DNA of 34,237 nt from a virus. Both the position numbers and the translations under genes were made by a program. The notes below the pieces were generated by a model. That model searched no databases and was not told the DNA's origin. It worked only from the letters and a program-made list of their open reading frames with translations. Shown here piece after piece: positions 6,858-30,128 of the stretch (position 1 is its first letter; each line of letters opens with the position of its first letter). The stretch is from the IMG/VR virus record IMGVR_UViG_3300048130_000159, positions 1 to 34,237 of that record, one strand, 5' to 3'.

Positions 6858-9800
6858 TTAATCTGTTCTATATGTTAATTGAAATACAATATCGTTGCTG
6901 TTTGCCCCACTTCCTGTGTCTGATGGTTGTATGTTTGAACTGTTTGAAGTAGTGGTTGAATTATAATATAAAAATATAAGTTCAGAACCGTTTAATGACA
7001 TTTTCTGCGGCTCTTCACCACCCCAAGCATTTGCATATCCAATAGATCCTGCGTATTGAATAGGTCCGCTTAGTACATCTGTAACCGTAAAAGGAACACC
7101 TGAAATATATACCGACCCTGAAGAGCTAGACCATACAAGAGTGTCTGTTCTCATACGAGCCCATAAGTGAACTACGTTACCAACTTTAATGTACCTGCCA
7201 AACGTTACTGGGTCGTATGAACTACTTGTGACTGTTGCTGAAGATGATGCGTATACTGGTGTCCAAGAACCTTCTTCGTAGTCATCTAGTGTATTAGCAT
7301 CAGTAGTGTCACTACCAAACATAATGCCACTTGCTCGCACTTTGTTTTCTACGTCTAAAGAAAGGTTAGTAGTTGTAATTGAATTGACACCAACGCCAAG
7401 CGTAACACCTGAACCATTAAAGTAGAAATGGTTTTGACTACCTCTGTAAAATAAATGATTTGTACTACTAGTGTCTTGAAACGTTATTCCTGTAAAAGAA
7501 TCTCCGCTTTGCACCTTCATGGGAGCATCAGCTGTAGGATGATAGACGTGCAAGCTAATTCCACTACTTGGGTCTATACCAATACCAACAGCATCATTAC
7601 CGCCATTCACTTTGATCATATTGGCGTTTCCGTTAGACTCTACTCTAAAATCATAATCATTTGACCCATCGTTAATAATAATACCTACATTTGATACCTC
7701 TATTCTTTCAGCGCCACCCGTAACGACACGCCATTGGTCACTGCTATGGAATTGCATATAGCAGTTAGTATCACCTGAATGTATTATTTGGTTAGGAACA
7801 GTAAGGTTTCCTGTCAGTGTTCCACCTGCTAGTGGCAAATATGATGTACTATTAAAAGCGTTTGAGCCTAGTGTTCTAACTCTGACACTTTGAGCTTGGT
7901 CAAACGTAAGAACAGTAGTATCACTTGTGTTACTAACAAGGTTATTAAGTGTAAGGTTATTTGCTGTAATAGTACCTTCTACGTCTAGCTCAGTAGCTGG
8001 ACTAGTAGTACCAATACCTACGTTATCATTAGTGTCAATAGTTAAAGCTGTAGTAGAAGCTGTATTATTATATATACTAAACTTATCATCAGTTCTTGTA
8101 TTTACAAACCATGATTGCGCATCATTTACCAAGTCTAGTTGAGCAGCTCCATTGGCTCCTGTATTTTTTACCTTCAGTACTACACCAGCTCCTGCTGATG
8201 AATCTTCTACATGCAATTTAGCGCTTGGCGAAGTAGCACCAATACCTACGTTACCATCTGTATATGTAGTGGTAGTACTGTCTCCTAATACTATCTTATC
8301 AGGGTCAGTGCCTTCACTCATTTGAATAACCCTTCTACCACCAGCATCTATACGAACATCGTCATTTCTAAGTCTAATAAAAGTATTGGTATCTCCGTTG
8401 TGGTAAATATACTCATCTACTCCTATATCTCCTGCGACATCAAGTTTATAATCAGGACTATTAGTACCAATACCCACGTTACCGTCATTATAAAACAAAT
8501 TGTTTACAGAACGTTGCCAATGAAAGTCTGCACCCATATTATGAAACGTTCCATCATTGTCACTACACAAATAACTTTCAGTTAGTATTCTTATTGGATA
8601 AGAAGTTGAATGATTCGTGTATGCTACAAGGGTTCCAGAACTTTCAGCCAGTAATGGGTGATTGCTTGTATTGCCACTTATGTTTACCGCCCTAACTTCC
8701 CACGATGTAGTATCGGGATTATAATTTACAATATATGTAGCGCCACTATTTGTGCCTGTACCTGAGGTTGTGAGTCTAACCTTGTACATATATGCACTAC
8801 TTATTGCTGTATTATTGTCACGCCACTCTACTGTAATTCCATTAGAAACGCCTGCGCCACTTGTTGACTCATATTGACTATACCAAAACCAAGCTCCTTG
8901 TATAGACATATCTCCATCTACATGAAGTAATGAATTAGGGGTGGTAGTGCCAATTCCTACTTTGCCGCCATTTGGATTTATTGCAGTATTCGAATAACTA
9001 CCACCTGTAAAGGTTTCAATTATTCCCCTAGTGCCATCGTGATTAAATCTTAATAAAGTATTTGTGCTTGACCAAACGTCTAACACTCCTGCCACTTGCA
9101 GTTTAGTTCCGTTTTGAGCAGTAGTAGTACCAATTAATACGTTGCTATTAGTAATAGCAATATCATCTTCAAAACTTATACGCACATTACCGTCAAGCCC
9201 ATAAAGGTCTCTAGTTGTGCTAGTCATTCCTAAAACATTAGTCCCATCAGCTTCTCTTAATATATCTGTTCTTATGCGAGTAGCATATAAAGTTCTCCAT
9301 CTATTTGCAGTTCCACCTAAAAACTCAGTGTCATCAGCGTTAGGTATTATATCTGCTGAAGTAAGCTGACCTGTAAGCGTACCACCTGTAATTGGTAAAA
9401 AGTCAGAGGCAGTAGGTATCGTATCACTATTAAAGGCGTTTGAACCAAGTGTTCTGTATGTAACGTTTCTGCCTTGATCCCACATCAAAGCTACAGTATT
9501 CGTTGCTCCCTCAGATATGCCATCTAAATTAAGGGTGTCTACAAACGTAGTAGAAGGTATCTCTTGAACCTCAAGATTATTAAACTCTACAGTTCCGTCA
9601 TAAACGATGTATCCTACACCACCCTCTGTAAATGTGGTGTCGTTAATGGTATCGTTGATAATTTGGTTACCATCAATATCTACTCGTATCTTTTGACCAA
9701 TAACTTGTACGGTAACTCTGTGCCAGTTGCCATCATCTATGTCTACACCTGAAATAGCAGTTCCACCGACACCACCTATAAGATAAGATTGACTAACATT

Positions 9801-12800
9801 AGTCTGTCTTTTTTGAACCCTTACCGTATTTGTACTTCGTATAATTACATTGTAACCATCTTCTGATGGTGAGTTTTGACCATGATAAACCAACCCAAGA
9901 TGAGTGGAATTACTAGTTTTAAATGAAAAGGTAGCTATGAAGTTTTGGTGTTCACCGTATGGAGTAACAGCCGCATAAGCACTAGCGCTTTTAACAAACT
10001 TAACTGTTTTATCGTCTATCCAAGTTGCTGTGTAACTAGAACCTGAACTTCTCCAACTAGCGTTACCGCCAGTATTTGTAAAAGAACCATCAATGTTTAG
10101 GTCATTTGATATATCTACATCGCCACCAGAGCTTATGGTTAAATAGTCAACATCATTCTTGCTAAACTGTACTGCGGTAGCATCAAAGCTAATGTTTGCC
10201 CACGTTTTACCATCAGTACCGAAGTACATATTTTTATTATTATCACCAGTTGGTCGGATATATGATGATGCTCTATTAAACTGAATGCCATATCCTCTCA
10301 TTTCTGTATAGGCATTATCGCTATGATAAACTCTTACACTTCTGTCAGTAGAGTTATTTCCAACTGTTAAATCACCAGTAAGCGTGCCACCTGACAACTG
10401 CAAGTATCTATCATCATGCGTATGACTGTTATTAGTTACCTGTGCAGATATGGTTATGTCTGCTGAACCGTCAAAGAAAGCTGAACCTGTAAGGTCACCG
10501 CCAAGTGTTATTTCTCTTGCAGTTGTTAACGTGTCTGCATTAGGGTGATAGCCATCGTGAAACACTTTGTTCAAAGAACTAAGCGTAGTGCCACCTGCGT
10601 AAATCTCGCCTAACACGCTAAAAGAAAGTGTTCCTGTACTTGGAAACTGTGTATTACTTGGGGAAGCATCTAAAACAAGACCGTATCCATTTGCGCTTAG
10701 TTCGCTATCAAATTCATTATGATAAAGAGATACGCCTTGATTATTCCCCGTATCAAAATTAATTCTTGGATAACTACCCGTTGCGGTATTTGTTTCTACT
10801 AAAGTAAGCGTAGGGTTATCTTTACTTATAGTAATGTTGCCCGTAGTCGTATCGCTTGCATTACTTCTTAAATACTTAGGATCAGTCTGCGTGGTTATGT
10901 CAAATGACGTAAGAAACGCAGTGCTATTAAACGCATTTGAACCAAGTGTTCTACGTTTTAAGACACCATCACTATTCTGAAACAAAGCGTTAAGATTCTC
11001 AGCAGTCGTAGTACCCTGAGCCAATAAGGTCACTACACCTTCGTGACTTATTTTAAGGATATTTTCACCTGATGGAACCGTACCGTCATCGTTAAGGTTA
11101 CGGATAAAGAAGTCACCACCGCTTAACAATATCTCTTTATTTTCATCAGTAGTATCCGACTCTTTTAGCTGAAACTTAGGTGCGCTTGTGCTAATGGCAG
11201 TTACAGACTGAACGGTTAATGACCCAGTAAGAGTGCCACCGCTTAATTCTAAGTATCTAGCATCACCTTCTGTCTGTGTTAAAAATTCAGACGGTACTGC
11301 CGTAAGATAACCAGCGTTGGCATGGTTGCCCCAACCATATGCTGTGTCCCAGTTACTTTTATTGTATCCTGAAATAGACGTAGTACCACTAAAGAAGTTA
11401 CCAACCTCTGTTTCTGTATAGTATCTACCATCGTGATTATGAGACCAGCTTACGCTTGTAATATTGGGGATACTTGAGCCTGTGTTGTAATCAGCACTAA
11501 ATGTAAACGCTGACGTATCAAAGGACACGCTTGCTATATAATCGTTTGTGTCAGTAACTTGGTTGAGCGTAGTAGAACCCACAGTTAAAACGTGACCGTT
11601 ACTATCAAAAGTAAGAGATTGTATTACGGTAGTACCACTATTAGTTTGGTTTGTTGCGTTACCGCCTATAGTTGGATGAGCAGTTAAATACCCTTCTGTA
11701 GAGTGGTCACCCCAACCGTAAGCAGTATCCCAGTTACTAGAGTTGTCTGTAACAATATCGTAAGTACCTGCACCAGTACGCTTCATCAAACCATTGCTAC
11801 TAAAATCATCATCTGATATTAGAGGGAGGTTAGATAATAGAATTTTTTTAGTGTTATTAAGTCCATCTAATATAGCAACACTATCAGCGCTTGCATCAGC
11901 CGATGTTGCTAATGTAAGATTTTGTAAAGCTAAGTTTAAGGTTACATCTCCACCACTCTCGCTACTACTTAACCCTGAAGTATTGCTAGTAGATATAGTA
12001 TCTATAGCCCCAGCAGGTAACGAGCTATTTATAGTTACATTAGCCCCGTCAATCTCTAAAGTCACATTATCACCTGCCTCAAGCGTTAAGGCATCGCCAC
12101 TGCTAATATCCTGACTTGTAAGACCAACCGTTACTGTCCAGTGGTCGTAGTTATCTGCATGAGCAAGTACAGCAGCTTCGGTAACTGTTGTTAGATACGT
12201 ACTAGTATCTTCTGTGCCATCTGCCTTTAGAAAGCCACCGCTATTGCTTTGTTTAATAAAGGAAGACGCAACCAAAGATGAATCAGCATTCCATCTGTCA
12301 TTGGCTTCATCCCAAAAGAATGATTTGTTGGTGAGGTCACCCCTTTCTACTTCTATACCAGCATTTTCTGTTGGGTTGTTACCAGTAAAATTACTGTTTA
12401 AAGTAATAATGTTATCAGCAAGGTTGATCGTCTCAGTATTTACGGTAGTAGTCGTACCACTAACAGTAAGATTCCCACTAATAATAAGGTTGTGAGATAT
12501 GGTTCCGCCTGTTAAAGGGAGGTGACCCACTTGACTATATGTATAAGCCGCATCCCAATTAGAACTACTATCTGTAATAGTTGCATATACGCCATCACTA
12601 GTACGTTTCATTAGACCGTTACTACCAAAGTCAGCATCCTTTAGGAAAGTAGAATCATCATTGAAACTAGTAAGACCAATCGAACTAAGCGCAGTAGCAA
12701 CCGCCTGATTGTTGCTATCCCCTAAAAATATCTTGTTTTGATCTAGGTTAGGTACAGCGTTTGTACGACCTGCACCCATAATGTAAATTTGACCACTACT

Positions 12801-13382
12801 GGCATGAACTCGTATAACCTTAGCAATCTTCTGAAGTAGATCACTCTCTCCAGTTGGTGGTGTAGCTGTAAGCGTACCTGAATCACTTATGTATAATTCG
12901 TCACCTACTGTGAAAGAACTTGTGTCTATACCTATAAGTTTACCATGCGTAACAATGTCTCCCTCAGCACTAGCGTTTACATCAGCCGCTAAGATACCTA
13001 TACATGGCATTTTTGCGCTGTCATCTGCGTCTGCAACCCCAATAGTAAACTGTTGACCCTGACTACCAGAAATATATACTGGTGTTCCTTTTGTTAACGT
13101 GCCGCTTGTAGCATTTTTTCCTTGCACGTGAATAGCACCAGTTAAATCACCGCTAAATTTAGTGGCATCTACTTCTCCAACTATGGTAACATCAGCAGTA
13201 ACAGATGTTGGTATGTTACTAAAGTCAGCTCTTAGGAGTTCGTGACCAGTAGGGGCTAATCCTGAATCGTCATGGACAAGTAGGGTGTATTTTTCAATAT
13301 CTACTGTTATCTCTGCTTCAGCCCCAATAAAGCCTACGTGCTGTGCGGTTGTACCTCTTCTACGTTTTACTTCTGTTGCCAT
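6858..13382 (-). CDS. Giant tail fibre / receptor-binding protein
   Basis: 2174 residues, about 19% of the genome. The N-terminus (KRRRGTTAQHVGFIGAEAE...VHDDSG) is the head domain common to phage fibres that attach to the tail. The shaft holds repeated modules: LxxxGGTLTGxLTV-like units near residues 289, 716, 996, 1332 and 1852; TLGSNAFNS three times; NWDTAYGWG units; and GNVGIGTxSP units typical of trimeric fibres. Residues about 1100-1275 resemble a LamG/concanavalin-like lectin domain. The C-terminus (EGSWTPVY...FGRYIKVGNVVHLWARM) is a receptor-tip-like beta domain. No S74 chaperone motif is evident. It should bind the host surface and set host range. Confidence 0.85.
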   Translation of the reverse strand: MATEVKRRRGTTAQHVGFIGAEAEITVDIEKYTLLVHDDSGLAPTGHELLRADFSNIPTSVTADVTIVGEVDATKFSGDLTGAIHVQGKNATSGTLTKGTPVYISGSQGQQFTIGVADADDSAKMPCIGILAADVNASAEGDIVTHGKLIGIDTSSFTVGDELYISDSGTLTATPPTGESDLLQKIAKVIRVHASSGQIYIMGAGRTNAVPNLDQNKIFLGDSNNQAVATALSSIGLTSFNDDSTFLKDADFGSNGLMKRTSDGVYATITDSSSNWDAAYTYSQVGHLPLTGGTISHNLIISGNLTVSGTTTTVNTETINLADNIITLNSNFTGNNPTENAGIEVERGDLTNKSFFWDEANDRWNADSSLVASSFIKQSNSGGFLKADGTEDTSTYLTTVTEAAVLAHADNYDHWTVTVGLTSQDISSGDALTLEAGDNVTLEIDGANVTINSSLPAGAIDTISTSNTSGLSSSESGGDVTLNLALQNLTLATSADASADSVAILDGLNNTKKILLSNLPLISDDDFSSNGLMKRTGAGTYDIVTDNSSNWDTAYGWGDHSTEGYLTAHPTIGGNATNQTNSGTTVIQSLTFDSNGHVLTVGSTTLNQVTDTNDYIASVSFDTSAFTFSADYNTGSSIPNITSVSWSHNHDGRYYTETEVGNFFSGTTSISGYNKSNWDTAYGWGNHANAGYLTAVPSEFLTQTEGDARYLELSGGTLTGSLTVQSVTAISTSAPKFQLKESDTTDENKEILLSGGDFFIRNLNDDGTVPSGENILKISHEGVVTLLAQGTTTAENLNALFQNSDGVLKRRTLGSNAFNSTAFLTSFDITTQTDPKYLRSNASDTTTGNITISKDNPTLTLVETNTATGSYPRINFDTGNNQGVSLYHNEFDSELSANGYGLVLDASPSNTQFPSTGTLSFSVLGEIYAGGTTLSSLNKVFHDGYHPNADTLTTAREITLGGDLTGSAFFDGSADITISAQVTNNSHTHDDRYLQLSGGTLTGDLTVGNNSTDRSVRVYHSDNAYTEMRGYGIQFNRASSYIRPTGDNNKNMYFGTDGKTWANISFDATAVQFSKNDVDYLTISSGGDVDISNDLNIDGSFTNTGGNASWRSSGSSYTATWIDDKTVKFVKSASAYAAVTPYGEHQNFIATFSFKTSNSTHLGLVYHGQNSPSEDGYNVIIRSTNTVRVQKRQTNVSQSYLIGGVGGTAISGVDIDDGNWHRVTVQVIGQKIRVDIDGNQIINDTINDTTFTEGGVGYIVYDGTVEFNNLEVQEIPSTTFVDTLNLDGISEGATNTVALMWDQGRNVTYRTLGSNAFNSDTIPTASDFLPITGGTLTGQLTSADIIPNADDTEFLGGTANRWRTLYATRIRTDILREADGTNVLGMTSTTRDLYGLDGNVRISFEDDIAITNSNVLIGTTTAQNGTKLQVAGVLDVWSSTNTLLRFNHDGTRGIIETFTGGSYSNTAINPNGGKVGIGTTTPNSLLHVDGDMSIQGAWFWYSQYESTSGAGVSNGITVEWRDNNTAISSAYMYKVRLTTSGTGTNSGATYIVNYNPDTTSWEVRAVNISGNTSNHPLLAESSGTLVAYTNHSTSYPIRILTESYLCSDNDGTFHNMGADFHWQRSVNNLFYNDGNVGIGTNSPDYKLDVAGDIGVDEYIYHNGDTNTFIRLRNDDVRIDAGGRRVIQMSEGTDPDKIVLGDSTTTTYTDGNVGIGATSPSAKLHVEDSSAGAGVVLKVKNTGANGAAQLDLVNDAQSWFVNTRTDDKFSIYNNTASTTALTIDTNDNVGIGTTSPATELDVEGTITANNLTLNNLVSNTSDTTVLTFDQAQSVRVRTLGSNAFNSTSYLPLAGGTLTGNLTVPNQIIHSGDTNCYMQFHSSDQWRVVTGGAERIEVSNVGIIINDGSNDYDFRVESNGNANMIKVNGGNDAVGIGIDPSSGISLHVYHPTADAPMKVQSGDSFTGITFQDTSSTNHLFYRGSQNHFYFNGSGVTLGVGVNSITTTNLSLDVENKVRASGIMFGSDTTDANTLDDYEEGSWTPVYASSSATVTSSSYDPVTFGRYIKVGNVVHLWARMRTDTLVWSSSSGSVYISGVPFTVTDVLSGPIQYAGSIGYANAWGGEEPQKMSLNGSELIFLYYNSTTTSNSSNIQPSDTGSGANSNDIVFQLTYRTD

Positions 13383-22271: not shown

Positions 22272-23465
22272 TTACGCTTTAGCTACGTTACCACGAATGT
22301 ATCGTCCACCTAGATCTGGTCTGAATACTTTAGCTCCGTAAAGAACTTCGATAAGTATGTCAGCACCTGACTTGGTTTCTTCTACAGTCAATGTGTAGTT
22401 CACATTGTTAGTAGGCTCGAATCCAGCAGCTCTACGAACGCCTGAACCTGAACCGCTATCTACTGAAGGCATTACAGCAGTTACTAAGGCAAGGGCAGAA
22501 GGATCGTAGAAGAACTGCTCACGACCAGTGTCACCAGAAGCAATATCAACTGGGTTGATAGTAGCGTTGTTAGCAACAGCAGAACGTAACTCTTCTTTTA
22601 GAGTCAATACAGTTCCTGTTTGAGACTGAACAGTGTAGAAGTCATCAGCACCTTTAGCAGAACCGAAAGTAACGATGTCACCCTCAGCTAGAGACACAGT
22701 TGCAGCACCACCAGAACCATCATCAATGGTTAACTCAGTTTGTCCTACAGCTTCGTCAGCAGCTAATACAGCGTCGGTTACAGTAGCAGCAGTGTGGCTA
22801 GAACCTTCGTTGTCGATGAAGAAGTCAAAACCATAAGCACGACCCATAGCTCCACCTAATTGGATACCTGAGTCTCCACGAGTGTTAGCTTGTTGGAATA
22901 GGCTTAGTGTAGTTAAATCTTTCTCAGCGAAAGGATCAATAACCATCATCATATTGTCAGTGATGAACTTACGAGAAGCCATAATTCTTCGGGCTTCAGC
23001 AAGGTCATTAGCACTTAACACAGTAGAGTCAGTGTTATTGTCAGCGAAAGCTACTTCAAAGGCTTTACGAGCCTCAACCTTAATGTCGCTATTGATTTGG
23101 TCAATAAGCTGGTGTAGTCTTGGCACAAAGTGTTGTTGTACTAAGTCAGGAAGCGCAAACTTTTGGTCAGCTTTGTCGATGCTGAATCCAGAGTAGTAGT
23201 GCTTGTTGATTACTAGTTGCTCTTCGTTAGCATCAGGGGTTCCTAGAGAATAAGACCCTGAGTAAGAAGAAGGAGAGCCAGTAGGCTTTACTGCACGAGT
23301 AATACTTACAGTCTTGTTACGAGCTGCAACTAGACCTTCGATTGATGCGCCAGCTACGTTAGTAACGGCTTTGGATACCATTGGTCGGTCTGGATATTGG
23401 TTAGCTAGTGCAACCTCAACAAACGCCTCTGGTTCGTAAATGGAAAAATTACTATTAATTGCCAT
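22272..23465 (-). CDS. Major capsid protein (HK97 fold, P22-coat-like)
   Basis: 397 residues, after scaffold and portal. The N-terminal arm leads to GASIEGLVAARNKTVSITR, a long spine-helix region (QQHFVPRLHQLIDQINSDIKVEARKAF), then ARRIMASRK...MMMVIDPFAEKDL and GRAYGFDFFIDN, the pattern of P22-coat-like HK97-fold capsids. Residues about 245-320 form a Gly/Thr-rich beta insertion (TELTIDDGSGGAATVSLAEGD). A leader of about 100 nt with an AT-rich TATAAT and a downstream terminator suggest separate high-level expression. Confidence 0.85.
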   Translation of the reverse strand: MAINSNFSIYEPEAFVEVALANQYPDRPMVSKAVTNVAGASIEGLVAARNKTVSITRAVKPTGSPSSYSGSYSLGTPDANEEQLVINKHYYSGFSIDKADQKFALPDLVQQHFVPRLHQLIDQINSDIKVEARKAFEVAFADNNTDSTVLSANDLAEARRIMASRKFITDNMMMVIDPFAEKDLTTLSLFQQANTRGDSGIQLGGAMGRAYGFDFFIDNEGSSHTAATVTDAVLAADEAVGQTELTIDDGSGGAATVSLAEGDIVTFGSAKGADDFYTVQSQTGTVLTLKEELRSAVANNATINPVDIASGDTGREQFFYDPSALALVTAVMPSVDSGSGSGVRRAAGFEPTNNVNYTLTVEETKSGADILIEVLYGAKVFRPDLGGRYIRGNVAKA

Positions 23466-24319: not shown

Positions 24320-25879
24320 TTATTGCTCGCTATTTAAATCAATACCAAGTTCTGCTTGGCGTTGAAGTTCTTCTTGTGGTAATATATCAATAAGATTTTT
24401 AAGATCACCACTAGTTTTCGGAATACCAAAGTTATCGAAATGATCCATAACACTCATTATGTCTTCTTGAGGCATAGAGCGTTTCCTCATGTATTCCGCA
24501 GTCAATTTCTTAAGTAGCGGTAAAGGCAATACGTGATACTGCATACCCTCCGTAATATCTGAGAATATTTCTGCGGCACTAGACAAGTCATAATGCTTCG
24601 AATAGGTAACGTTATAATCCATTGGATCTTCGTCACGAACCTTAGCCATTCTCTTGAGGACTTGCATCTCTACCATCTCCATGTCCATAGCCGTAGAGGC
24701 TAGTAACCCCTGTTCTTCTACGTTATCAAATCTCTTAGCGGATCCAGACACATTACTCTTAACAATGGACTTGTCCCGAACTTGAGCCATAGAAAAAATT
24801 AACGACATCAAGTCACCAAAGATTACATCTCTGAGGTGTTGGAGTCCAGACATATCCGCTTGATACAGCATATTGTTAGGAATGGTCTGGTCATCAGGGA
24901 TGATTATAGCCATACCTACGCCTTCCTTGATAGTACGTGAATCGTACTGGTCATCATCAGCAACACCAGCTAGAGACCGAACGATAGAGTCTGTAAGTAC
25001 AGGAATAGGGTGACCAAACAACTCAGAACCCTTCTTGAGGTCATAAAAGAGTTCTGAGGCTGCAAGGTACATTCCTTTCAGAGAATATCTACGAGGCTTG
25101 CCAACGATAAACGAACTGTTAGCATCGGTCTGACCCTTAAGTAATGTAGCTGGAACCTCACCGAATGGGTTGGGTATTTCTAATGTCTTTTTCTTGAGTC
25201 CGTTCTCTTCGGTGTACACACAAATGTATTCAGGAGTATAAGCGGTCCACTTATGCTTCTTAACGTTTTGTATGTCATAATACATTTGACGAGTTACGAG
25301 TAGGGTCAATACCCCTTGCTTTACCTCGAAGTTCCAAATCTCGTGCGGTCTAACCACAAAGTTGTAAGGAACCACGTTACCATCCGTATCAGTAACAGGG
25401 TTGCCTTCTCCATCCATCATGAGGTCAGTAACTACCGCCCCAAAACCTAACACTTCCTTTACGAATAGAACCTTGTCTCTATAGAACTCAGTAATGGAAC
25501 ACCCCGCATCATCAAAGTTGGATTCTTTATACATCCAAAAGTCTTTGTTTTGAGGGTAACTTCTGTTGACGTTGTTTTCGTCATATATCCTTTGTTGAGC
25601 AGAAAAGAACTTTTGCTCTAAGGGAAACAGTTTCATACGAGCAAGTCTTTCCCTGTATTCATCGTCACTCTCAATCGTAGACTGAGCTATGATATAGGAC
25701 TTGTCAGAAAATACGGTACTGGATATAGCTGTGTATTCATCGTACTCCGCCTGAAACCAACTATTCATGATTTTAGCCCTGTCCAACACCACACTATAGT
25801 ATGGGTGTCGGCTTTCTTTCATTACGATGTCTTCAACGACATCCTTTGGTACAGAGTAGAGTTTAGATGAATCAATCAT
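24320..25879 (-). CDS. Portal protein
   Basis: 519 residues. It lies upstream of the scaffold, and its size fits phage portals. FYRDKVLFVKEVLGFGAVV, RPHEIWNFEVKQGVLTLL and LRDVIFGDLMSLIFSMAQVRDKS follow the wing and stem layout of SPP1-gp6/HK97-type portals, with helical stem and crown at the end (EEELQRQAEL-like C-terminus). It forms the dodecameric DNA channel at one vertex and docks the terminase encoded just upstream. Confidence 0.75.
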   Translation of the reverse strand: MIDSSKLYSVPKDVVEDIVMKESRHPYYSVVLDRAKIMNSWFQAEYDEYTAISSTVFSDKSYIIAQSTIESDDEYRERLARMKLFPLEQKFFSAQQRIYDENNVNRSYPQNKDFWMYKESNFDDAGCSITEFYRDKVLFVKEVLGFGAVVTDLMMDGEGNPVTDTDGNVVPYNFVVRPHEIWNFEVKQGVLTLLVTRQMYYDIQNVKKHKWTAYTPEYICVYTEENGLKKKTLEIPNPFGEVPATLLKGQTDANSSFIVGKPRRYSLKGMYLAASELFYDLKKGSELFGHPIPVLTDSIVRSLAGVADDDQYDSRTIKEGVGMAIIIPDDQTIPNNMLYQADMSGLQHLRDVIFGDLMSLIFSMAQVRDKSIVKSNVSGSAKRFDNVEEQGLLASTAMDMEMVEMQVLKRMAKVRDEDPMDYNVTYSKHYDLSSAAEIFSDITEGMQYHVLPLPLLKKLTAEYMRKRSMPQEDIMSVMDHFDNFGIPKTSGDLKNLIDILPQEELQRQAELGIDLNSEQ

Positions 25880-26495: not shown

Positions 26496-26527
26496 TTTGT
26501 AGTGATATTTTCTTTTATTTTTGACCT

Positions 26528-26911
26528 ATGGCAAACGAACCAGCAAAACCAGCACTATACAGTCGAGTTAAGGCTGCAGCTAAACGAAAGTTTAAGATAT
26601 TCCCTAGCGCATACGCTTCTGCGTGGATTGTAAAGGAATATAAGAAAAGGGGCGGAACGTATAAGGGCAAAAAGTCTGGTAAGACAGGTGTAGCTCGATG
26701 GATGAAAGAAAAGTGGACTACTCAAGACGGTTCACCTTGTGGATCAGCTAAATTCAAGGGCGTAAAAAAATGCAGACCCACTGTGCGTGTTTCATCCAAA
26801 ACGCCTGTCACTTGGAAAGAACTCAAAGCAAAAGGCAAGGCTTCTGAGGCTGTACGTGAGAAAAAGCGTGTAGGGATGGGTAAACGCACTAAATCTATTA
26901 AAAGAGACTAG
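26528..26911 (+). CDS. DUF5872-like basic protein, lone rightward gene in late arm
   Basis: 127 residues, strongly basic. ALYSRVKAAAKRKFKIFPSA, AWIVKEYKKRGGTYKG, GVARWMKEKW and CGSAKFKGVKKCRPTV match the DUF5872 family as I remember it, found mainly in phages of aquatic bacteria; function unknown. It is transcribed against the late operon and its stop shares the palindromic CTAG with the stop of the terminase nuclease gene. TATTTTTG just before the ATG is a perfect TAnnTTTG element, so a near-leaderless mRNA is possible. It resembles a separately transcribed accessory gene. Confidence 0.65.
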   Translation: MANEPAKPALYSRVKAAAKRKFKIFPSAYASAWIVKEYKKRGGTYKGKKSGKTGVARWMKEKWTTQDGSPCGSAKFKGVKKCRPTVRVSSKTPVTWKELKAKGKASEAVREKKRVGMGKRTKSIKRD

Positions 26912-27693
26912 CGCAGCACGTACATAGGAGCGTTACTACCCTTCTCATTACGCCAAATAGCATAATCTGTCGCATCCGACATATGTCCCCTGTCCCCATT
27001 GTCAATTTTTAGCCCTTTATCATTCACGATAGAGTACATATAGTCTTTTATGACGTGATCACACCTTGTATTGATTAGCAACCTTCGCTCTCCATTGATT
27101 CCAGCGTAAATTACGTTGTTTACCTTGTCCACACGCACTTTTCTTCGTGGATTTTGGATGTCTAACTCGTTTTTATACGAAATTTGGTGTTCATCAAACA
27201 CTTCTCGCACGTAATCCCAGTCATTTTTACCTACACGACCATAATTACCACTTTTTTGGTTAGAAGTGTTGTCTCCAGACAGTAAAACCTTCGAGATGCC
27301 CCATTTTTTCAATAATTCTACCGCTTTGAGGGCTTGTTCGGTAGTTAAAGCCTCTTTGGAGAAGATTTCGTCAAAGACAACATACTGCTTAAGCCCATTA
27401 CGAGCCTTTTTAACTTGGAGCAAAGCCCAACAATGAGGAGACCTGTTGAAATCAGCACAAAGCCAAACAGGACTATCATTATCGTAGTCGATAGCCGTAA
27501 GATTGCCATCAGGGTAGTGATTATAGCCGTCAAAGTGCTTGTAAGCCTTTCTCGTTGGGTCATCTGTTTCCTCGCTCATTTCGTACCCCAATTTATACGA
27601 CAGAAAGTCCATCGCCTCTTCTTGGAGTAGCCGTTGTTTACTGTGATTGGTTTCCCACAAGGGAATATCCCAAGTCTTGTCAGGTTCTCTCAT
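26908..27693 (-). CDS. Terminase large subunit, nuclease half
   Basis: 261 residues. PLWETNHSKQRLLQEEAMDFL is the linker segment that follows the ATPase in intact TerL proteins. PVWLCADFNRSP (D81), YVVFDEIF (D108/E109), LLSGDNTS (D141) and GHMSDATDYAIWR (D240, D243) are the acidic residues of the RNase H-like terminase nuclease, which cuts concatemers during packaging. The ATPase half is a separate gene, with another gene between. The ATG overlaps the upstream stop by 4 nt. The half is complete for its domain. Confidence 0.85.
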   Translation of the reverse strand: MREPDKTWDIPLWETNHSKQRLLQEEAMDFLSYKLGYEMSEETDDPTRKAYKHFDGYNHYPDGNLTAIDYDNDSPVWLCADFNRSPHCWALLQVKKARNGLKQYVVFDEIFSKEALTTEQALKAVELLKKWGISKVLLSGDNTSNQKSGNYGRVGKNDWDYVREVFDEHQISYKNELDIQNPRRKVRVDKVNNVIYAGINGERRLLINTRCDHVIKDYMYSIVNDKGLKIDNGDRGHMSDATDYAIWRNEKGSNAPMYVLR

Positions 27694-28034
27694 ATAGAAA
27701 GTATAGATTTAAACGCACTATCAGAATCAACAAAAAAGATGGGGACACCCATTTCGGCACCCTCCTCTACTATATGTAATGCACCTGATCGGTGCTCGTG
27801 TAATGTTTTAAGGTCGTAAGTGATTATGCCCCATCCATTTTTAATGCAATTATCGAATACAGGATTAAACTTCTTAGAAGAGGCTCCTTTCTGGACTATT
27901 TCCCAATGTTGTTTTACGACTTTAGCGTCAAGCATACGTACAAAAGAGTTAATCTTGTTTTTAACTGAGTTTATTTGTTTCTGGTCAACATCTGTTGTAA
28001 ATCTAGCGTATATAACTACTTTAGGTTGTTCCAT
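27690..28034 (-). CDS. Degenerate serine-recombinase-fold protein within split terminase
   Basis: 114 residues, between the ATPase and nuclease halves of TerL. VVIYARFTTD followed by SVKNKINSFVRML, EIVQKGASSKKFNPVFDNCI, GIITYDLKTLHEH and GVPIFFVD follows the resolvase catalytic domain (YARxSTD, Q.A.L, EGxSG..RP.F, vvyKLDRLxR, GVxlxfv). The catalytic Ser is Thr (T13), and the conserved Asp-Arg of the LDRL motif reads KT, so strand exchange is unlikely. There is no C-terminal DNA-binding domain. It overlaps the ATPase gene by 19 nt and the nuclease gene by 4 nt. It may be a packaging subunit derived from a mobile gene. Confidence 0.6.
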   Translation of the reverse strand: MEQPKVVIYARFTTDVDQKQINSVKNKINSFVRMLDAKVVKQHWEIVQKGASSKKFNPVFDNCIKNGWGIITYDLKTLHEHRSGALHIVEEGAEMGVPIFFVDSDSAFKSILSI

Positions 28035-28876
28035 TCTTCTACTTTGTAGCCTGTCTTATCTTCCTTTACCGATATTTGTAGTACGTTAAAGATGCCCGAC
28101 TTCATGAGCCGACTATTAGCATCATTTGGATGATAAGGCGTACAAACGCTTAAAACAATACCTTTATCGTGAACACGCTTGATCCATGTATTAGACACCT
28201 TGTTCCATACGGTTTCCCTACGAGCAGTAGATATTCTGTCCTCGTCATTACACACATCATCAAGAATCAAGACACCAGCTCGTTGTCCTGTGGTTTGGGT
28301 CAGCACTGCATACGCCTCATAAGTGGGGTTACCAGTACGGTTACGACTTTTTACAATTATGCGTTGGGTCGAGCCTGTATCGGTGCGGTCAAACTCAACA
28401 GGATTGAAGTTGTGTTCCTTACACCAGTATCGGTACATATCACTCATGAATAGCGCACGCAAAGACAATATTCTTTTAGTTGAAATACCACCGTCAGCAG
28501 ATACAATCAAGGTTTCTAGCTCGTGTTTTCTCGTGGTCATGTACGCAGACAAACCAATAGGCACTTGTTGAGACTTACCAGTGTTATAAGGCGCACGAAT
28601 CAAGCCATTCAAACGAGCGTTCTTAGATAACGCCTCTTGTTCCCAGTCATAAATGCCTTGCTGCATTGTTAAATGAATCTGAGCTTGTGTTACTTTACGA
28701 CCATCTTGATCGGCTAAACAATTCTCAATAAATGAGTTCCTAAGTTCTAACGAGTCAGGGGGTGGCTCGTGTCCAACTACATTAACCAATAAATCAGACC
28801 AATTACTTTTTTGGGGCATACGCTCGCTTACATAGGGTGCATTGCGACTTACACTCCCTGTTACCAGAGATGACAC
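28016..28876 (-). CDS. Terminase large subunit, ATPase half
   Basis: 286 residues from a GTG at 28876 (in-frame stop just before it); the ATG at 28819 would give 267 residues. Walker A is APYNTGKS (95-102), Walker B VLILDDV (202-208), and the coupling motif is SVCTPYHPNDANSRL (243-257), all in TerL order. It ends right after the ATPase domain where an intact TerL would run on to its linker and nuclease. The motor should assemble on the portal with the separately made nuclease. It lies downstream of TerS and the PD-(D/E)XK gene. Confidence 0.85.
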   Translation of the reverse strand: MSSLVTGSVSRNAPYVSERMPQKSNWSDLLVNVVGHEPPPDSLELRNSFIENCLADQDGRKVTQAQIHLTMQQGIYDWEQEALSKNARLNGLIRAPYNTGKSQQVPIGLSAYMTTRKHELETLIVSADGGISTKRILSLRALFMSDMYRYWCKEHNFNPVEFDRTDTGSTQRIIVKSRNRTGNPTYEAYAVLTQTTGQRAGVLILDDVCNDEDRISTARRETVWNKVSNTWIKRVHDKGIVLSVCTPYHPNDANSRLMKSGIFNVLQISVKEDKTGYKVEEWNNLK

Positions 28877-28929
28877 CTAAACACTTAAAACGTTCTTTCT
28901 TTCGCCAAAGCCTAGAAAAGAAGTTCAAG

Positions 28930-29436
28930 TTAAACTTTATAGGCATACGCCTCCTCCTTGAGTTCCATCAAGTCCTCCTTCGGTATATACACGAAAATGT
29001 CCTTCCTATTGTTCCTGCCCATTAGCGTGTAAGAAATGTTACTGAACCCATATTTCTTGTGGAGGCTGTTACCTCGTAACACGCCTTTCTTATTGTTTAT
29101 CTTGGGGATCATCTTTTTCTGCACGTACTTATACAACGCCTTATTGTCCACGACTATAAACTCCCCATGAAACTGAAAGGCTATCTTGTCCGCACCAGTG
29201 GGGCTACACCATCCATTTTTACCTTGCACGTTCCTGAACTCCACGAGGATATACCCCTTACTGTGACACGCCTTAATACCCTTAACGTCATAGGTAACAT
29301 CCCCAATACGAGCGTCAATGTGATTGTAGTCATCTTTCTGGGTACCCTTTACCGCACCAGTAATCTTGCAGAATAACTCTTCCGACTTCTGAGCCTCAGC
29401 GTACTGTCTTTGTTGTATTCCTTTAAATGAGTTCAT
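28930..29436 (-). CDS. PD-(D/E)XK endonuclease-like protein beside terminase
   Basis: 168 residues. HIDARIGDVTYDVKG supplies acidic residues and the D-V-K catalytic strand, ILVEFRNVQGKNGW the next strand, and GADKIAFQFHGEFIVVD the core helix and strand, as in a phage PD-(D/E)XK group often found near terminase genes. It overlaps TerS by 14 nt. It might cut DNA at packaging, restrict host DNA or resolve junctions. Third member of this fold in the genome. Confidence 0.6.
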   Translation of the reverse strand: MNSFKGIQQRQYAEAQKSEELFCKITGAVKGTQKDDYNHIDARIGDVTYDVKGIKACHSKGYILVEFRNVQGKNGWCSPTGADKIAFQFHGEFIVVDNKALYKYVQKKMIPKINNKKGVLRGNSLHKKYGFSNISYTLMGRNNRKDIFVYIPKEDLMELKEEAYAYKV

Positions 29437-29980
29437 AATCTACCTCTATCGCCTCCATTCTTTGTGCAAACTCTCTAAGCTGATCCATGTTCAGGAAGTC
29501 TTGAAGAACTTGCAGTGTTTGCTCTCGCATCTTGTTTTTATACTCTATGATGATAGTCGGCTCGTTGCTCAGCTCCTTACGAACGTCATGAAGGTCCTTC
29601 ATTATCTTACTCAGGTCCTTCGGATGAATCGCATCCAAGTCTGGATGATTCTCTAGTAGCGTAGTTATCTTCATGAGCATGAACTCTACTTTTGCCGACA
29701 TCTTTTCCTTGCGCTGTTCCAGCGTACCCAAGTCAGATAACACGCTTCTATACTTATTAAGTTCTAGTATACTACTATGGTCCAGATCAGGCTTATTCTC
29801 CTTCAAGATGATCTCATCATCTATCTTAGACCGCTCCGCTTTCCAGTTGTAAATGGTTTGTCTGGACACCCCCCACTTTTGCGCTACTTTTGACACATTA
29901 CCAATGACAGTTATATCCTTCAGGATTTCAACTTTCTCTTCAGGTGAAAACTCGTGGCTACCAGCCCTTTTCTTTGACAT
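29423..29980 (-). CDS. terS: Terminase small subunit
   Basis: 185 residues from the ATG at 29980; a TTG two codons earlier is less likely. Residues about 12-55 form a helix-turn-helix (EEKVEILKDITVIGNVSKVA, WGVSRQTIYNWK) for the DNA recognition site. A long helical, coiled-coil region follows (EQRKEKMSAKVEFMLMKIT, HDVRKELSN), the oligomerisation part of TerS rings. It lies two genes upstream of the TerL ATPase and close to the C-rich block at 30194-30560, its possible target. Confidence 0.75.
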   Translation of the reverse strand: MSKKRAGSHEFSPEEKVEILKDITVIGNVSKVAQKWGVSRQTIYNWKAERSKIDDEIILKENKPDLDHSSILELNKYRSVLSDLGTLEQRKEKMSAKVEFMLMKITTLLENHPDLDAIHPKDLSKIMKDLHDVRKELSNEPTIIIEYKNKMREQTLQVLQDFLNMDQLREFAQRMEAIEVDYELI

Positions 29981-30128
29981 ACTCAATCACTGATTCTATA
30001 CGGTTATAAATATAATTGGGCAGTTTATCAGACATAGAGGGTATCTCATAAAGACTCTTTATGATTACTTTGATTTCCTCCTGCAACTCTTCTTTGGTTA
30101 GTATCTTTTTCTTTTTGTGCCAGCCCAT
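29958..30128 (-). CDS. Small lysine-rich helical protein, first late gene
   Basis: 56 residues from the ATG at 30128, which lies about 21 nt after the predicted late start site. A longer open frame upstream uses non-ATG starts across the promoter and is not credible. KKKKILTKEELQEEIKVIIK and a YIYNRIESVIEYVKEKG helix make a basic, amphipathic protein. It overlaps terS by 23 nt. Perhaps a packaging accessory; not recognised. Confidence 0.55.
   Translation of the reverse strand: MGWHKKKKILTKEELQEEIKVIIKSLYEIPSMSDKLPNYIYNRIESVIEYVKEKGW

Follow-up and report, generated by a model that had tools for sequence, protein, structure and literature searches.

Bacteriophages are known to encode essential enzymes in two chains, with a mobile gene lying between the two coding parts. 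Examples of this gene-in-pieces arrangement are mobE and nrdA in Aeh1, mobA and the gene for the topoisomerase large subunit in T4, and seg43 and gene 43 in phage 25 (reviewed in PMC2988022). The nrdA gene split by free-standing homing genes gives rise to a working two-chain enzyme, and a DNA polymerase that is active although split is likewise associated with such homing genes (PMC2988022). The gene for the large terminase, terL, can be divided too: in vibriophage ICP1 (PMC10448857) and in the Jug phages (PMC12363816) the coding region is interrupted or split, with homing-endonuclease genes nearby, and it is rejoined by RNA splicing where this was tested. Homing genes of the T5orf172 family lie mostly near terminase genes, and nuclease genes have been found at the boundaries of genetic exchange (PMC10448857). 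Neither genes divided by homing endonucleases nor divided terL genes are therefore new in themselves.

The locus described here, found in a viral stretch of 34,237 nucleotides (hereafter the window, meaning the whole stretch of DNA that was analysed), shares several features with these systems. As in the genes in pieces, an essential phage enzyme appears as two chains whose genes flank a mobile-type gene, the overlaps between the genes suggest translational coupling, and some members of the family also have a GIY-YIG gene; as in the terL of ICP1 and the Jug phages, the coding region is divided and homing-endonuclease genes occur nearby. However, and in spite of these similarities, there are important differences: (i) the fixed middle gene, which we call INS, would encode a dead recombinase-like protein and not a nuclease; (ii) the two halves appear to come from different TerL lineages; (iii) there is neither an intron signature nor spare sequence, unlike in ICP1 and the Jug phages. 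In the open-access literature we found no description of a terminase ATPase and a terminase nuclease of different lineage that are separately encoded; within the reach of this search, the combination of a lineage chimera and a fixed, dead recombinase-like gene is new. We consider it reasonably likely (probability about 0.6) that the locus encodes a chimeric two-polypeptide large terminase, produced from a translationally coupled three-gene cluster in which INS was fixed at the recombination joint.

The original prediction, made from the window alone, held that two pieces of TerL are separated by a catalytically dead serine-recombinase-like gene and coupled by overlaps, and our analysis supports this picture. 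The three minus-strand open reading frames and both overlaps are present as described (Table 1). The first frame had been drawn from 28876 to 28016, but conservation among relatives begins at Met20, which is invariant in their alignment, so translation of the ATPase probably begins at the ATG at 28819 and not at the GTG at 28876.

Table 1. Features of the divided terminase locus (positions in the window)
Feature	Position	Strand	Remarks
Gene 1, predicted ATPase half	28016..28819	(-)	267 aa from the conserved ATG; 286 aa if from the GTG at 28876
Walker A, APYNTGKS	28571..28594	(-)	invariant in the alignment of relatives
Walker B, LILDD	28256..28270	(-)	invariant in the alignment of relatives
Coupling (C) motif, TPYHP	28127..28141	(-)	invariant in the alignment of relatives
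Overlap of 19 nt, ATPase stop / INS start (ATGGAACAACCTAAAGTAG)	28016..28034	(-)	
Gene 2 (INS), serine-recombinase-like, without catalytic residues or DNA-binding domain	27690..28034	(-)	114 aa
Overlap of 4 nt (ATGA), INS stop / nuclease start	27690..27693	(-)	
Gene 3, predicted nuclease half, RNase H-like	26908..27693	(-)	phrog_2/phrog_10250 lineage, by sequence
Asp81 of DFNxxP (motif I)	27451..27453	(-)	invariant; aligns to DFNVSPM of LP.2
Asp240 of HMSDA (last acidic motif)	26974..26976	(-)	invariant; aligns to HMTDA of LP.2

The arrangement is not confined to the window. Searches of IMG/VR with the nuclease protein, the ATPase protein and an INS profile yielded about 93-101 matching stretches per query, and the proposed search for phages with the same split recovered the same gene order in about 89 contigs, the carriers being uncultured, mostly marine phages. 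This recurrence rules out the frameshift or sequencing error that had been named as a possible refutation, and any other local artefact: the observed three-gene arrangement is no artefact. ATPase and nuclease are encoded by separate genes, never by one polypeptide, in all loci that carry both halves (89/89), and in each of them INS is intact and occupies the same position; the IMG/VR searches never found INS away from terminase genes. The ATPase-INS overlap measures 19 nt in all 67 relatives that lack the GIY-YIG gene, while that between INS and the nuclease gene is 4 nt in most relatives but 14 or 17 nt in a few of them, where the nuclease gene consequently lies in another frame relative to INS. 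The dN/dS ratio (Nei-Gojobori, 65 genomes) is low throughout, with values of about 0.04 in the ATPase gene, 0.05 in the nuclease gene and 0.17 in INS, so all three genes are under purifying selection and are maintained as proteins.

The junction is also a site of insertion. In 22 of the 89 loci (L020, L025 and L032 among them), although not in the window itself, the ATPase gene and INS are separated by an additional gene of about 130-170 aa. This gene belongs to the MUG113/T5orf172 family of GIY-YIG nucleases, its motifs look intact, and most copies carry an N-terminal Cys-pair motif. The close pair L020 and L021 represents a filled and an empty site: in L020 the gene sits exactly at the ATPase-INS overlap, and a short repeat (ATGGAACAA) preserves both neighbours. 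The relatives thus carry, as genes in pieces do, a free-standing endonuclease gene that occurs sporadically at the split, and the junction is still being invaded by homing-type GIY-YIG genes in about a quarter of them. That INS is a captured mobile-type gene, as originally suggested, fits with its fixation, with the selection acting on it and with the presence of the GIY-YIG gene at the same junction in relatives.

What kind of protein is INS? In strand and helix order, in a Y-x-R start motif and in a weak profile match it resembles the catalytic domain of serine recombinases such as IS607 TnpA, TP901-1 integrase and Tn3 resolvase. The INS of the window matches the Pfam Resolvase profile (PF00239) with an E value of 3.4e-4 and 21.2 bits, just below the curated cut-off of 23.3 bits, and this profile matches 21 of 27 divergent INS members, the best at 3e-5. 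Aligned by hhalign to seven phage or transposon serine recombinases (including Cin, Tn3 and A118), INS gave an E value of 3.6e-5 and a probability of 71%, and the only match of its profile to PDB sequences at E below 1 was TP901-1 integrase (E 0.23). The AlphaFold model (pLDDT 70) shows the element order b-a-b-a-b-a-b-a, and its top structural neighbours in VIA-align include IS607 TnpA (Z 5.7 and 4.9) as well as the unrelated HypE (4.8). The structure prediction that had been proposed as a check thus did place IS607-type recombinases at the top, but with a best Z of 5.7, which is modest, and with a model of limited confidence. Neither the phage record collection (no credible match) nor BFVD (no significant match) offered another relative. 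Altogether, profiles and model point to a resemblance to serine recombinases that is weak but consistent.

Unlike these enzymes, INS does not conserve the serine nucleophile, lacks equivalents of Arg68 and Arg71 as well as a DNA-binding domain, and has invariant residues of its own (Tyr9, Gln18, Trp44, Ser53, Tyr73, His79 and Gly84). The substitutions originally read from the window are correct: the Ser10 position is Thr13, and Asp67-Arg68 are replaced by Lys76-Thr77. Across 59 distinct copies the Ser10 position is taken by Gly, Thr, Ser or Asn (23, 18, 14 and 4 copies), the Arg68 position is Thr or Ser in every copy and the Arg71 equivalent is absent from all; of the catalytic set Ser10/Arg8/Arg68/Arg71, Arg8 alone is kept (56/59). 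Since the active-site residues are missing across copies and there is no DNA-binding domain, INS can almost certainly not act as a recombinase in any member of the family, as judged from its sequences.

INS might instead be an unrelated small accessory gene, involved for example in anti-defence or regulation, which occupies a tolerated gap and whose likeness to recombinases is incidental; we take this possibility seriously, but regard it as unlikely. It draws on the weakness of the recombinase scores and on the rapid evolution of INS, which is far more divergent than its neighbours (33-95% identity, against 88-99% for the nuclease). It also draws on allele swapping: over the ATPase and nuclease genes the DNA of L009 and that of L066 share mostly 92-100% identity, which falls to 83-87% over the 120 bases immediately preceding INS and to 52-73% inside INS. 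Because INS is divergent here while the flanks are near-identical, its allele has been replaced between these phages. Against such a reading, INS is intact in every locus and always at the junction, while the adjacent GIY-YIG gene comes and goes, and comparisons by profile, PDB sequence and structure independently rank serine recombinases at or near the top.

The two halves can each be assigned to a TerL lineage, although the similarity of each to its own lineage is remote (24-28% identity, or detectable by profile only) and the alignments of the halves are shallow. Neither half returned a hit among PDB sequences. Gene 1 has the Walker A, Walker B and C motifs of a terminase ATPase together with a profile match: it matches phrog_38 (E 1e-20), matches to phrog_38 and phrog_4758 were found in 9 of 9 members with nothing else of note, and hhalign aligned it to the Zobellviridae TerL group (probability 93%, E 4e-7) with no match to the group of phrog_2/10250-type TerLs. 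By its sequence, gene 1 is the predicted packaging ATPase of the phrog_38 (Zobellviridae-type) TerL lineage. Its closest relatives, at 24-28% identity, are the TerLs of Vibrio phage 521E56-1 and of Pseudomonas phages IME180 and GP100; these proteins differ in being intact (510-535 aa) and in having a phrog_38/phrog_20726 nuclease without a match to the nuclease half found here.

Gene 3 shows the opposite affinity. Eleven of 13 relatives of the nuclease half match phrog_10250 (best E 3e-8), the only terminase family to appear; in phrog_2-type TerLs, for example those of LP.2, hairong and KBS-S-2A, phrog_10250 makes up the C-terminal module. Against the TerL C-termini of LP.2, hairong, KBS-S-2A and M31CR41-3, hhalign gave a probability of 97.8% (E 8e-13), and against the Zobellviridae group it gave no match. 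Asp81, Asp141 and Asp240 are invariant, and motifs of the DFNxxP, DEI and H-M-[ST]-D-A type are shared with the phrog_2/phrog_10250 TerLs; the signatures DFNxxP, FDEI and HMSDA agree by eye with DFNVSP, FDEI and HMTDA of LP.2, while those of the Zobellviridae TerLs differ (DFAF and HDD[VI]KDA). Gene 3 thus has the conserved acidic residues of an RNase H-like nuclease domain as far as its sequence goes, the fold being weakly modelled (pLDDT 45). The structural neighbours of that model (ribosomal L18-like proteins, integrase cores and one phage terminase) are of low confidence and were not used as proof. We assign gene 3 as the putative nuclease module of the phrog_2/phrog_10250 TerL lineage, preceded at its N-terminus by a short segment that is probably equivalent to the lid of the ATPase. 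The closest TerLs, those of Vibrio phage LP.2, Pseudomonas phage hairong and cyanophage KBS-S-2A, differ in being intact, about 410 aa long, and in having an ATPase without detectable similarity to the ATPase half.

This mismatch bears on a simpler history, in which INS, or an element carrying it, was inserted into an intact ancestral TerL whose two pieces continued to function, like those of Aeh1 nrdA. Such a split has a published precedent (PMC2988022), and it agrees with a junction that falls after the ATPase motifs and ahead of the nuclease and with the location of INS and the GIY-YIG gene exactly at that junction. However, the halves are of different TerL lineages, phrog_38-type and phrog_2/10250-type. 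The two groups of TerL do not detect each other at all by hhalign, eleven assignable intact TerLs were each of one lineage along their entire length, and although intact TerLs exist for each lineage, none of those examined combined a phrog_38 ATPase with a phrog_2/10250 nuclease. The original claim of a TerL split in two therefore stands as to the two pieces, but not as to their common origin, and a single ancestral TerL simply cut by insertion is unsupported. No sister phage with an intact TerL, or without the insert, was found either: profile scans and three degenerate motif scans of viral contigs for an intact-TerL or INS-less sister gave only the clade itself or other proteins, and genome contigs yielded no relatives. 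We thus consider the simple split quite improbable; a variant, in which an intact chimera was formed first and split later, is conceivable, and no outgroup that would order the chimera, the split and the insertion was found. A possible mixed precedent is phrog_979, met with in the TerL of L093 and L234, which has matches to phrog_38-type TerLs at their C-terminus and to phrog_2-type TerLs at their N-terminus; module exchange between TerL lineages may have happened before.

In the chimeric two-chain terminase that we favour, recombination at the junction, most likely promoted by resident mobile nuclease or recombinase genes, would have brought together the ATPase module and a foreign nuclease module as unfused genes, and the packaging motor would form from the two chains in trans. 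INS, being fixed and selected unlike the GIY-YIG gene, would be a domesticated relic of a gene at the joint; it could keep the genes coupled via translation re-initiation, and may serve as a small protein-interaction subunit. A more demanding version, an obligate three-protein motor in which the dead recombinase-like INS replaces the covalent linker and joins the ATPase to the foreign nuclease in trans, is in our judgement very doubtful. The exchange of INS alleles argues against tight co-adaptation with the halves, and suggests that any contact of INS with the chains uses its conserved residues. That a single polypeptide is made after all, via a group I intron, an intein or programmed frameshifting, is most improbable in spite of the terL introns of ICP1 (PMC10448857) and the Jug phages (PMC12363816): the reading frames run into one another, so that no spare sequence is left that could hold a ribozyme, nothing in 26500-29500 matched Rfam up to E 10, INS shares its reading frame with neither half, which rejects an intein or fused product, and the variable INS-nuclease overlap does not conserve the frame relation that programmed frameshifting needs.

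No phage marker is more conserved than TerL, and linkage of ATPase and nuclease is assumed in motor models and in phage taxonomy. If the chimeric two-chain reading is correct, a natural terminase of two chains and two lineages would test the need for covalent linkage in the switch between packaging and cutting. It would also illustrate how chimeric essential enzymes can arise through mobile genes that occupy a joint, and it cautions that trees built on TerL can be misleading.

The window also encodes a portal (phrog_145; 24320-25879, minus strand) and a P22-type coat protein (phrog_283; 22272-23465, minus strand), and because neither has a tblastn match in 50,697 phage records, the phages with this arrangement form an unsampled clade. 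Directly upstream of the ATPase gene lies a gene of 168 aa (28930-29436, minus strand) that is PD-(D/E)XK nuclease-like by eye (TYDVKG...VEFRNVQGKNGW), with no significant Pfam or PHROG match; it is variable in relatives, many of which have other small genes instead. Next to it, 29423-29986 (minus strand) encodes a 187-aa protein with a helix-turn-helix of the transposase/terminase-small-subunit type (PF01527, E 7e-6; phrog_2538, E 6e-4), a probable small terminase by these matches. On the strand opposite to the structural genes, a DUF5872 protein (26528-26911, plus strand; E 4e-25) is convergent with the nuclease gene and overlaps its end by 4 nt. A giant open reading frame of 2174 aa (6858-13382, minus strand) is also present in this 34-kb phage record.
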